64,000 nucleotides of DNA from Elusimicrobiota bacterium (GTDB taxonomy: Bacteria; Elusimicrobiota; Elusimicrobia; F11), in NCBI GenBank assembly GCA_022072025.1, contig JAJVIP010000027.1, positions 62,001 through 126,000 on the forward strand, in the 5' to 3' direction. The translations under genes and the position numbers were made by a program. Under the pieces are notes generated by a model that was given only the letters and a program-made list of their open reading frames with translations, did no database searches and was not told the origin of the DNA. This document shows positions 59,620 to 63,602 of the stretch, piece by piece (the first letter of the stretch is position 1; the number at the start of each line of letters is the position of its first letter).

Positions 59620-61839
59620 TTATTTATCGAAGGAAAAGAGTGTTTCAGTAGATGTATCTATTAAATGATGGTAATACCGAACGTCGTATTCAAAGGTGTC
59701 CTCAATCAGCGCGAGGGGCATGACCCGCCAATCTTTAACGGCATCTTTTTCTTCCATTACCACATAGGAAATGGTTTCACCCGGATGAAGTTCGATTCCG
59801 GAAGCCGCCATTTTTTTGGCGGCCAGCGCCGGGAGCGTGTCATTTAAATAGTCTTCAGGGCGATGACGAAGCTGTCGAGAAATGGCCAATTCCATAGGAG
59901 TGACCCAACCACAACGCAAACGTTCCTTATATTTTTCAAAAATATTGGCCAACTGCGGCTTCATGCCTTCCAATTCGCTGAGACTTTTCGCTTGGGCCAT
60001 ACATGACAACATTTCCTGTTGCATGTTTTTCACGATCAACGGGGTGTCATGGCGGCGCAACTCAATCCCCCGCACTTTTGTTTCGCCGGTCCTAAACGCT
60101 CCAAAATAACGGCTGGGAACCGCCCGGCCTTTCTTTTGCTTGGATTCGCAGAAATGAATCCACCGATATCGACCTTCGAGTCCAATCGGAAGCCCCGTGG
60201 CAATTTCAATATCGAGTCGAAGTTTTTCCACCTCCTCATCTGAAACATCTTCTTTCTTAAGCCACAACGAATCCACGATCGCGTGTAAAAAATGAAATCC
60301 TTTCTTCTCCGCTACTTCTTTGGCCAGAAGCAGCGCCTCCCGGCCATAGGCATTTACACATTCATGCGCTTCAATTTTCCCAAAACGCGCATTTCGAAAT
60401 CCCAAATATCCGAAACTGGTAACGAGCGCCCACTTAAAAGCGTCATAACGTCTCTTAAAGATTGGGGAATCAGAATGGCCGGATTTGATCAGGCCTTTAT
60501 AAAGCGAACGTTTTTTCACCAAAGGTTCCAACACGTCTGGAATCATGCCCCGTTTACGACACAAATGGTGGTTCAATCCCGGAACGACATGATCAACACA
60601 ACAACCGCAGTTAACAGCTTCCGGTGTCACGTTGTGACGCACCATGATTTCGGGATACATGGAAGAAAAGTCCAACTCAATGACATCCTCATGAAATCCC
60701 AATTCTGGTTCATACACCAGACCTCCCCGATCGGCCGCAATAAAATCTTCTCCTGAACGAAAATCTTCCGTTTGTCCTTTATCCAGGGGAATCAAGATAT
60801 CACGCTTCACCGCCCATTCATGCTGCATTGAACTTAAAGAGGTGCCGATGGTGCAGCGCGCAGCGCGTTGAATGGGAATCTTGGCCACACGCGAAATTTC
60901 AAACAACCCATCCAATCCACTCGTGGCCATCGTAAAACTGTTACGTCGATCAATATGCAAGCGCCCGAACAATGTTCGAGATCCCGCTTGATACACCATT
61001 TTCCCATAGGTCATAAAAGACCTCGCCTTCTTCTCTTTCGGCTTCCATGAGGGAACCGATTGGTGAGCACTCTTCCGGGACAGAGTCAAAGGAACGCCCA
61101 CGCGTTCTGCATGGAAATAAAGACGCGGCAACAAATAATCGTCTCCCCCTTCGGTCAAAAGAACGTCAGGATCCCACTCACGTATATGCCGGTTAAGACT
61201 ATGAACCAGTTCTTCTTCCGAGGCGTCCATGGAAAATGATCGCCCCTTCTCCCGTTCCGGCCCCAAAGTCAAAATGAACCGTCCCTTTCGCCTGTGCCCG
61301 GGGTTCACCCAAACCTCAGGTCCCGTGGGAGACTCCATCTCCAAATGAGCGTAGCGAAGAGGCGGCAAATCATAAATAAGCGCCCAAGGAGAATCTTTCA
61401 CATGCCACTCTTGAATGACCCCCGCATCATCAACAGAAAATTCACATTGGGCCAATGGGAAAAGTTGCCGCTCGTAAAAATAATACTGCCCCAAGTGAAT
61501 ATCCGCGTTGAAAAGCTCGAAGGAAGGAAGAGATTGAATTTTTTTTACAACCTGGCGATACAAAAGCGGATTATAAACATGAACTCCCATTACGGAGTCG
61601 TTCTCTCGTGAGAAGAACCCCTTTTTTTCTGAAACGCTCAGATCAAAACGTATTTGAAATGATTGCAATAACCGCTGAAGATGATCGGAGCTCCCTTCTT
61701 GAGCTTTCAGGTAAAAATGCGGTATCCACAAATCCAGATAGGAATGGCTATTGCCGTCCGCGTCAAGGATCCAAACACACATCCCTCGAGAAACAGGTGT
61801 AATATCTAGAATCCATCCGACTTTGTTTTGCAAACGCAT
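59620..61839 (-). CDS. Family B DNA polymerase with apparently inactive proofreading domain
   Basis: A 739-residue family B polymerase. Motif A is ELDFSSMYPEIM (D390), motif B KWALVTSFGYLGF (469-481) and motif C HAIVDSLWL: the essential second Asp (D523) remains, but the first of the usual DTDS pair is Ile. The exonuclease domain keeps its shape (REWDPDVLLTEGG, LLPRLYFHAERVGVPL), yet the DxE of Exo I is not found, the NxxxFD of Exo II reads GGDDYL and no Exo III YxxxD is visible. It is therefore probably an unproofread, translesion-type polymerase, resembling bacterial relatives of archaeal PolB2. It is the last gene of the lexA operon and overlaps the upstream gene by 34 bases. Confidence 0.82.
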   Translation of the reverse strand: MRLQNKVGWILDITPVSRGMCVWILDADGNSHSYLDLWIPHFYLKAQEGSSDHLQRLLQSFQIRFDLSVSEKKGFFSRENDSVMGVHVYNPLLYRQVVKKIQSLPSFELFNADIHLGQYYFYERQLFPLAQCEFSVDDAGVIQEWHVKDSPWALIYDLPPLRYAHLEMESPTGPEVWVNPGHRRKGRFILTLGPEREKGRSFSMDASEEELVHSLNRHIREWDPDVLLTEGGDDYLLPRLYFHAERVGVPLTLSRKSAHQSVPSWKPKEKKARSFMTYGKMVYQAGSRTLFGRLHIDRRNSFTMATSGLDGLFEISRVAKIPIQRAARCTIGTSLSSMQHEWAVKRDILIPLDKGQTEDFRSGEDFIAADRGGLVYEPELGFHEDVIELDFSSMYPEIMVRHNVTPEAVNCGCCVDHVVPGLNHHLCRKRGMIPDVLEPLVKKRSLYKGLIKSGHSDSPIFKRRYDAFKWALVTSFGYLGFRNARFGKIEAHECVNAYGREALLLAKEVAEKKGFHFLHAIVDSLWLKKEDVSDEEVEKLRLDIEIATGLPIGLEGRYRWIHFCESKQKKGRAVPSRYFGAFRTGETKVRGIELRRHDTPLIVKNMQQEMLSCMAQAKSLSELEGMKPQLANIFEKYKERLRCGWVTPMELAISRQLRHRPEDYLNDTLPALAAKKMAASGIELHPGETISYVVMEEKDAVKDWRVMPLALIEDTFEYDVRYYHHLIDTSTETLFSFDK

Positions 61840-62072
61840 GAAGCCCGCAACTCCTCCAGTTCACGCTTGAGCCCCACCAACATGGCCAAAACATGCGCTT
61901 CAAATGGCAGCGGTCGCTGCGCTTCAGACGCCGCCACGGCATGACGCCTGGCATACGTCCACAAATCATCAAAAACGATTTGATCTTCTTTTCTCAAGGC
62001 CCGCCGGAATCCCTTCCACTCTTCTTCGGCCTGTTGAAGCAAATTAATTTGAGTGGGAAGAGTCCGCCCCAT
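61806..62072 (-). CDS. Small helical protein of the lexA-polB operon
   Basis: An 88-residue, mainly alpha-helical and charged protein (LLQQAEEEWKGFRRALRKED, EAHVLAMLVGLKRELEELRASC) between the RecA-like and polymerase genes. No family is recognised. The tight spacing (6 bases upstream, 34-base overlap downstream) argues that it is real and acts with the polymerase, perhaps as a bridging subunit. Confidence 0.6.
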   Translation of the reverse strand: MGRTLPTQINLLQQAEEEWKGFRRALRKEDQIVFDDLWTYARRHAVAASEAQRPLPFEAHVLAMLVGLKRELEELRASCVCKTKSDGF

Positions 62073-62078
62073 AAACCA

Positions 62079-62969
62079 CTATCTTGCCATGACAGAAGCG
62101 GGCTCAACAAACCCCTTGATCGGAGACCTCTCTATCAAACTTTCGTTGCTCAACTCTCCCGAGACCCGGCGCGCCAACTTGAGAACATCCGGCAACAAAT
62201 GACGCCGGTTCACTGGAATTTCGTCTTCATGCAACAACGCCAATACAATGGCGCGCTGCCGCAAAAACGTCAACCGAATCATAAAAGAACGAAAAGCCCG
62301 AATGAGCGCGTCATCGGGAAGGTCTGGATCATAAAAGAGACCCATCAGATCCGAAATCACAACCAGCGGCGTCCACCACACAGCCTGAGAGTTTTTGAGT
62401 CCCTCGCCTCGAATCCTTTCAGACTGTGTGAGGTTGCCACCATCCGGGGCCCACAACGCGGGGTTGGGAACCCGTTCCAACATTTGTTGATACTGAAAAG
62501 CAGTAAAAGGACGGCCCACCCGAATAGCCCGCAACACACGGACAGGGTCTAACTTGCGTTTCTTGGCTTCCACACTCAGCAAGTAAGGATCAAACACATT
62601 GCCAGAGTCGACCCAGATCAATTGTCCAATCCGAGAATTTCGCCGCCAATACCGCGTGGGATAATGAACCAACTTTCTATTTCTGCCGTCCGTCAAGGGC
62701 AGCCCTTTGGGCTGCCACTTTTCCGGGGCTTGTATCCCCGGAAAAGTACCGCGGTAAGGTAACCCCGGACTTACGTCCGGGGCTTCGGCCGCAGTTAAAG
62801 AGACTTCCGGCGTTGGCGAAATGGTGTGTTCGCCATCCAGCAAGTCCACCAATTTTTTAAGAACGCGGGAGGACAACTCTCGCCCCCCCACGGCCACATA
62901 AAACCCCCTCTCAACGGGTCCCGGCACGATCAAATTTTCCAAACTGACAGCTGGCAATGCGCTCCACAT
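62079..62969 (-). CDS. RecA/ImuA-like protein lacking a recognisable P-loop
   Basis: A 296-residue protein whose later part follows the RecA-superfamily order seen in ImuA and RadA-like proteins: a strand LIWVDSGNVFDPYLL (117-131), DPVRVLRAIRVGRPFTAFQYQQMLERV (141-166), a Walker-B-like PLVVISDLMGLFYD (201-214), and a following helix and strand ending IVLALLHED. Where Walker A should lie (about residues 24-36) the sequence is VAVGGRELSSRVL, without GKT/S. ATPase activity is thus doubtful, as in many ImuA proteins. Residues 63-91 are encoded by the palindromic block described separately. GGAG lies 8 bases before the ATG at 62969. Confidence 0.6.
   Translation of the reverse strand: MWSALPAVSLENLIVPGPVERGFYVAVGGRELSSRVLKKLVDLLDGEHTISPTPEVSLTAAEAPDVSPGLPYRGTFPGIQAPEKWQPKGLPLTDGRNRKLVHYPTRYWRRNSRIGQLIWVDSGNVFDPYLLSVEAKKRKLDPVRVLRAIRVGRPFTAFQYQQMLERVPNPALWAPDGGNLTQSERIRGEGLKNSQAVWWTPLVVISDLMGLFYDPDLPDDALIRAFRSFMIRLTFLRQRAIVLALLHEDEIPVNRRHLLPDVLKLARRVSGELSNESLIERSPIKGFVEPASVMAR
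62698..62782. repeat. Three-hairpin palindromic block inside a coding sequence
   Basis: Hairpin 1: GGCAGCCC/GGGCTGCC, 62698-62705 and 62709-62716, 3-base loop. Hairpin 2: ACTTTTCCGGGG/CCCCGGAAAAGT, 62717-62728 and 62736-62747, 7-base loop. Then the palindrome TACCGCGGTA at 62747-62756. Hairpin 3: CCCCGGAC/GTCCGGGG, 62763-62770 and 62775-62782, 4-base loop. All pairs are perfect. The block stays in frame and encodes a Pro/Gly-rich stretch between the two conserved parts of the RecA-like protein. Confidence 0.9.
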
Positions 62970-62981
62970 AGAGGATCTCCT

Positions 62982-63566
62982 TTATTTTTTGTACTGCCTC
63001 CGCACTTCCACGACAACACCCAACAATGAAAACGGGCCTTCAAGAGGCGTATAAGCGGGATTGGCGGGCTCCAAAATTGTACGTTCGCCGCGCCTTCGTA
63101 ACCGTTTAACGGTGGCCTCATCCTCCACCCGCGCCACCACAATATCGCCATTCTCAGCGGTGGCTTGAACACGCACAATCACCATGTCCCCCTCCAAGAT
63201 ACCGGCTTCAATCATGGAGTCTCCTCGCACCTTAAGCGCGAAATGTTTGGAAGGTGAAAATTGCGCCCCCACCGGCAAGTAGCCTTCCACATTTTCAATA
63301 GCGGCATGGAGCGGCCCCGCGTGAACACGTCCCAAGATGGGCACTTGTTGGGCCGTGATCGGCAAACGAAGCCCCCGGGCCTTGGTGGGATCTTTGGTCA
63401 AAAATCCTTTGCGGCGGATGGCCTCTACTTGGTCTTGCACCGTCCCCACGGATAAATCCAAATGGTCCCCAATCTCCCGCAAACTGGGCGGACGATGGTT
63501 CTCCTCAATGTATTCCTGAATAAATCGATAGATAGCTGTTTGTTTGTGCGTGAGATTCAATTCCAT
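62982..63566 (-). CDS. lexA: LexA repressor
   Basis: The SOS repressor, 194 residues. The N-terminal winged helix (HRPPSLREIGDHLDLSVGTVQDQVEAIRRKGFL) has a recognition helix unlike the E. coli one. The self-cleavage site is A83-G84 (RVHAGPL), with the catalytic Ser117 (VRGDSMIEAG) and Lys154 (ATVKRLRRR). The ATG at 63566 begins the normal family N-terminus. It leads an operon with the RecA-like, small helical and polymerase genes, so all four should be induced by DNA damage. Confidence 0.95.
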   Translation of the reverse strand: MELNLTHKQTAIYRFIQEYIEENHRPPSLREIGDHLDLSVGTVQDQVEAIRRKGFLTKDPTKARGLRLPITAQQVPILGRVHAGPLHAAIENVEGYLPVGAQFSPSKHFALKVRGDSMIEAGILEGDMVIVRVQATAENGDIVVARVEDEATVKRLRRRGERTILEPANPAYTPLEGPFSLLGVVVEVRRQYKK

Positions 63567-63602
63567 GAGCGGCTATATACCCTACAAACGTAGGGTTGTC
63601 AA
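63567..63602 (-). promoter_or_regulatory. lexA promoter with embedded LexA operator, leaderless start
   Basis: On the minus strand TTGACA (63602-63597) and TATATA (63579-63574) are separated by exactly 17 bases. The spacer plus the first -10 base is a perfect inverted repeat ACCCTAC-N4-GTAGGGT (63579-63596). Only 7 bases separate the -10 box from the ATG, so transcription should start at the start codon. The repeat is the obvious candidate LexA operator and differs from the E. coli and B. subtilis boxes. Confidence 0.85.

Follow-up and report, generated by a model that had tools for sequence, protein, structure and literature searches.

The window, that is, the whole stretch of 64,000 nucleotides of Elusimicrobiota DNA that was analysed, contains four genes following one another on the same strand: lexA, a gene for a recombinase-like protein (iRadA), a small gene for PPB2, and polB2, with intergenic gaps of 12, 6 and -34 bases in this order (Table 1). 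A preliminary description of the locus had claimed this layout, with which our coordinates agree, as well as a single promoter ahead of lexA, for which we found a promoter-like sequence directly 5' of the lexA ATG. This sequence was not picked up in a consensus promoter scan because the rule of the scan requires T as the final base of the -10 element.

Table 1 Features of the lexA-iRadA-PPB2-polB2 locus and copies of the repeat element located in iRadA.
Feature	Position	Strand	Size	Remarks
lexA	63566-62982	minus	194 aa	
iRadA (RadA-like gene)	62969-62079	minus	296 aa	
PPB2 gene	62072-61806	minus	88 codons	
polB2	61839-59620	minus	739 aa	
Promoter-like TTGACA-17-TATATA	63602-63574	minus		from sequence; same layout in relatives
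Perfect palindrome CCCTACGTTTGTAGGG	63580-63595			inside promoter spacer; candidate LexA operator
Palindromic repeat element	62692-62795		~104 bp	in-frame insert at about residues 59-93 of iRadA; three hairpins
Repeat copies	G000:C11:143213, C9:199905, C27:45527, C10:208663, C10:180426, C27:185904, C11:71946			

The product of lexA scored 181.8 bits against the NCBIfam model TIGR00498 (cut-off 110.95) and also matched Peptidase_S24 and LexA_DNA_bind. Alignment with relatives revealed a winged helix-turn-helix, an Ala-Gly cleavage site (HAG), and the serine (GDSM) and lysine (TVKRL) of the S24 protease. Judged by its sequence, the protein is an SOS repressor with a cleavage site and a Ser/Lys dyad, and the promoter of its target carries a candidate operator. 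A second LexA-like protein of 37% identity is encoded on a small contig of the same genome (L034; G000:C42:2112-2669), where its gene adjoins a ParB-like gene and a helix-turn-helix gene and possibly stems from a mobile element.

The polymerase passed the Pfam model DNA_pol_B (PF00136; 1.5e-28) and also matched PRK05761 family models. Its motif C reads HAIVDS, so that the first Asp of DxD is gone. Alignment to Pfu Pol showed ExoII changed from NGDSFD to GGDDYL, and the ExoI and ExoIII columns hold no conserved acidic residues, either in this alignment or in that of 77 bacterial PolB2 proteins. The loss of the first DxD aspartate together with the exonuclease residues is the signature of PolB2 given by Timinskas et al. 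2025 (PMC11791011), and we assign the polymerase to PolB2 as a family-B enzyme devoid of the exonuclease residues; the earlier proposal of a proofreading-deficient family-B polymerase is in keeping with these alignments. Before the palm, D370-R371 are a candidate D(K/R) motif, the D of which is invariant in the 77 PolB2, and an FxxA-like stretch (candidate Rad51-like oligomerisation motif) reads FRSG in the window's PolB2 and FxxA in many relatives. Inspection by eye of the C-termini of PolB2 and iRadA from the window showed no clear beta-clamp motif; the PolB2 of one relative (L028) ends in EQLRLF. Since the first motif C Asp is replaced in 77 of 77 aligned PolB2, leaving none with DxD, the enzyme might also be catalytically dead and the operon serve stalled forks in a regulatory or structural way, which is how papers from 2008 to 2014 read it. 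We regard this as very unlikely, because 76 of the 77 proteins retain the Asp of motif A as well as the second Asp of motif C, and archaeal Dpo2, with the equal loss, is active and mutagenic.

For the 296-residue protein, searches of Pfam and NCBIfam gave no Pfam match and no usable family, whereas a profile built from 12 relatives matched RadA in the PDB with an E-value of 1.5e-10. An AlphaFold2 (AF2) model of the protein alone (mean pLDDT 68) was matched to RadA by Foldseek (E 9e-8), with low TM-scores (0.3-0.4) that reflect the large disordered share of the model. The protein contains no Walker A motif of the form GxxxxGKT, and the WIDTEN of RadA is changed to W(V/I)D(S/A)GN in the protein and its relatives, with loss of the Glu of DTEN. 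These two changes point to an inactive RadA (iRadA), in other words a RadA/Rad51 relative that is predicted to be ATPase-dead and is without the N-terminal helical domain. The gene had been called RecA/ImuA-like, with structure prediction suggested as a check; profile and model bear out the recombinase-like part. ImuA was rejected in view of the RadA/Rad51 matches, and nothing was found that ties the protein to ImuA.

The iRadA gene carries the palindromic repeat element as an in-frame insert, and the genome has seven other long copies of it. At least four of these seven are likewise located within long open reading frames and use one of two frames in a single orientation, and on these grounds the element resembles the protein-coding palindromic elements known from Rickettsia (RPE type). 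The encoded region is missing from the iRadA of most relatives in the alignment, and pLDDT falls below 50 over residues 48-112 of the AF2 model.

Neither Pfam nor NCBIfam offered a usable family for the 88-residue protein, and the PPB2 profile gave nothing significant against the PDB. Its N-terminus, MGRTLPT, is invariant in 11 aligned relatives, and GRT was found in all 72 of 72 PPB2 candidates. The suggestion of a helical accessory protein was upheld by an AF2 model of the protein alone, which has three helices at low confidence. We therefore assign it as PPB2 (arCOG07300), a small partner predicted to be all-helical, with the MGRT N-terminal arm as its diagnostic feature.

The polymerase is encoded in 14 of 98 genomes searched, including the window's own, with the linked genes in most of them. 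A scan of GTDB genomes returned 211 relatives, of which 80 were kept; these loci, which overlap in part with the relatives from the 98-genome search, come from Elusimicrobiota, Nitrospirota, Chloroflexota, Bacteroidota/Ignavibacteria, Acidobacteriota, Rokubacteria and Deltaproteobacteria. Of the 68 kept contigs that extend far enough upstream, 63 contain the full triad, always in the order iRadA-PPB2-PolB2 (63/63); lexA comes immediately before these genes in the window and in 14 of the 68 contigs, all counted from genomes other than the window's. Hence, the co-occurrence of the three downstream genes with lexA, which the preliminary description had singled out for a search, was found, and the four-gene order recurs in Elusimicrobiota relatives and other phyla far beyond chance. 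In two Rokubacteria loci (L101 and L103), lexA-iRadA-PPB2 is separated from polB2 by about 2.3 kb of other sequence.

The palindrome CCCTACGTTTGTAGGG in the promoter spacer has no second copy in the 3.64 Mb genome even when one mismatch is allowed. Related Elusimicrobiota PolB2 promoters carry an AC-N4-GT palindrome at the equivalent position, with half-sites CACTAC, CTGGAC, CTGAAC or TCGAAC. In an automatic test, at least five of six arm positions were paired in 14 of 63 promoters compared to 0.95 expected from shuffles, and these cases are concentrated in Elusimicrobiota. The half-site varies together with the recognition helix of the LexA encoded next to it: SVGT(V/I/A)QDQ goes with CTACN4GTAG (four LexAs) and (A/N)(P/R)SSV(A/D)YH with CTG(A/G)ACN4GTxCAG (three LexAs). 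As these seven LexAs represent few independent events, the joint change of helix and half-site is supportive but no proof. In other lineages, the promoter spacer upstream of iRadA of eleven Acidobacteriota loci (L079, L083, L089-L092, L102, L104, L105, L112 and L122) holds no palindrome and instead a TTCGC direct repeat, weakened in some copies, which is possibly another LexA-type operator; the PolB2 promoters of an uncultured bacterium (L064) and a member of the Bacteroidota (L074) have the palindrome ACGACATTTTTGTCGT in common between -35 and -10.

Adjacent lexA is absent from many bacterial PolB2 operons, and one could thus argue that lexA is only a neighbour with other targets and that the operon is constitutive. 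This explanation, too, we regard as very unlikely: the palindrome sits in the shared promoter, and several Elusimicrobiota operons that are without lexA have a CGAAC-N4-GTTCG box at the equivalent place. In the window's own genome, CGAACN4GTTCG has 6 sites compared to 4 in the control, which we read as chance. A wider LexA regulon was considered and rejected, since CCTACN4GTAGG occurs once in the genome, at the PolB2 operon, and TTGACN2-9CTACN4GTAG at this operon only, although degenerate sites could escape such patterns; CTACN4GTAGN0-8TATANT was found nowhere. The genome has one copy of recA, in whose upstream region no matching operator was seen by eye; this gives no indication of the usual lexA-recA circuit.

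The genome, rated 100% complete, yielded no Y-family (IMS) polymerase domain and a single C-family polymerase. The PolB2 mutasome thereby appears to be its only specialised translesion polymerase. The idea that PolB2 and Y-family polymerases exclude each other among the 98 relatives was rejected, as 8 of 14 PolB2 genomes carry both.

The arrangement itself is known. Makarova et al. 2014 (PMC4104785) described lexA-iRadA-arCOG07300-polB2 as one predicted operon in some bacteria, inferred a role in DNA damage and gave Leptospirillum ferriphilum LFML04_0990-0993 as an example. The 'PolB2 mutasome' of archaea and bacteria was named and modelled in PMC11791011, where lexA is reported as enriched beside bacterial polB2 and the phylogeny has the bacterial genes descend from an archaeal PolB2/RadA/arCOG07300 operon by a single archaea-to-bacteria transfer. 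Given these two reports, the Elusimicrobiota locus represents a DNA-damage operon of four genes that had been described before, not a system of a new kind, and the novelty that had been considered for it does not hold. The least likely explanation, a new cassette analogous to lexA-imuA-imuB-dnaE2 with a family-B polymerase in place of ImuB/DnaE2 and ImuA as the recombinase-like gene, shares the overall logic, with lexA leading a recombinase-like gene and the gene for an error-prone polymerase, but conflicts with the archaeal RadA/Rad51 affinity of that gene, with the lack of ImuB or DnaE2 model matches for PPB2 and PolB2, and with the description of the operon in 2014. What stands of the proposed SOS mutagenesis cassette is that it is LexA-led and probably SOS-controlled, with a LexA-type operator in its promoter; its reading as ImuA/ImuB/DnaE2 with a swapped polymerase is not supported, as the genes come from an archaeal operon according to the phylogeny in PMC11791011.

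The Leptospirillum operon has lexA, inactivated radA, arCOG07300/PPB2 and polB2 in equal order, the lost DxD and the MGRT arm, and the window's operon differs from it in its host, in the repeat insert in iRadA and in the promoter operator documented here. The Sulfolobus Dpo2 operon (archaeal PolB2) has the three mutasome genes, the motif C loss and a known induction by damage, but its control is archaeal, through Orc1/Cdc6 homologs, and not by LexA. The imuA-imuB-dnaE2 cassette works similarly, with LexA control of an error-prone polymerase and a recombinase-like partner, but uses a C-family polymerase and Y-family ImuB where the window has family B and a RadA-derived partner. Two E. coli polymerases are likewise SOS-induced: Pol II (polB) is also of family B, but proofreads and stands alone, whereas Pol V (umuDC) combines polymerase, recombinase and small subunits, but belongs to the Y-family.

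Taken together, we consider it highly probable (roughly 90%) that the four genes encode a bacterial PolB2 mutasome controlled by its own LexA, serving LexA-repressed, damage-induced translesion synthesis. In undamaged cells, LexA bound between -35 and -10, at CCCTACN4GTAGGG, would block transcription of its own operon; upon DNA damage, RecA filaments would trigger its self-cleavage. The iRadA, PPB2 and PolB2 then made would assemble as PolB2:iRadA:PPB2(3), following the architecture of the published AlphaFold model (PMC11791011), in which the MGRT arm of PPB2 is placed between PolB2 and iRadA. By analogy to Sulfolobus islandicus Dpo2, which is induced by damage and accounts on its own for targeted mutagenesis (PMC7390963), the complex may extend mismatched or lesion-blocked primer ends without proofreading, conferring damage tolerance at the cost of mutations. 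The accessible parts of the PolB2 literature yielded no expression, binding or mutagenesis data on bacterial PolB2 operons, and no mention of the promoter-operator findings, which we regard as modest additions.

The operator being found once in the genome, recA not being visibly part of the regulon, and helix and operator changing together, LexA in this lineage may have narrowed to a near-private role in repressing the PolB2 mutasome, with helix and operator as a portable module and the mutasome as the cell's sole dedicated translesion polymerase; we offer this as a tentative idea that we hold to be somewhat improbable. As to the main reading, Elusimicrobiota have the PolB2 mutasome, for which Sulfolobus is the best-studied host, in the form of a compact SOS-type operon, and the common promoter-operator layout together with the match between LexA helix and operator makes LexA control of this mutasome in bacteria a directly testable prediction.
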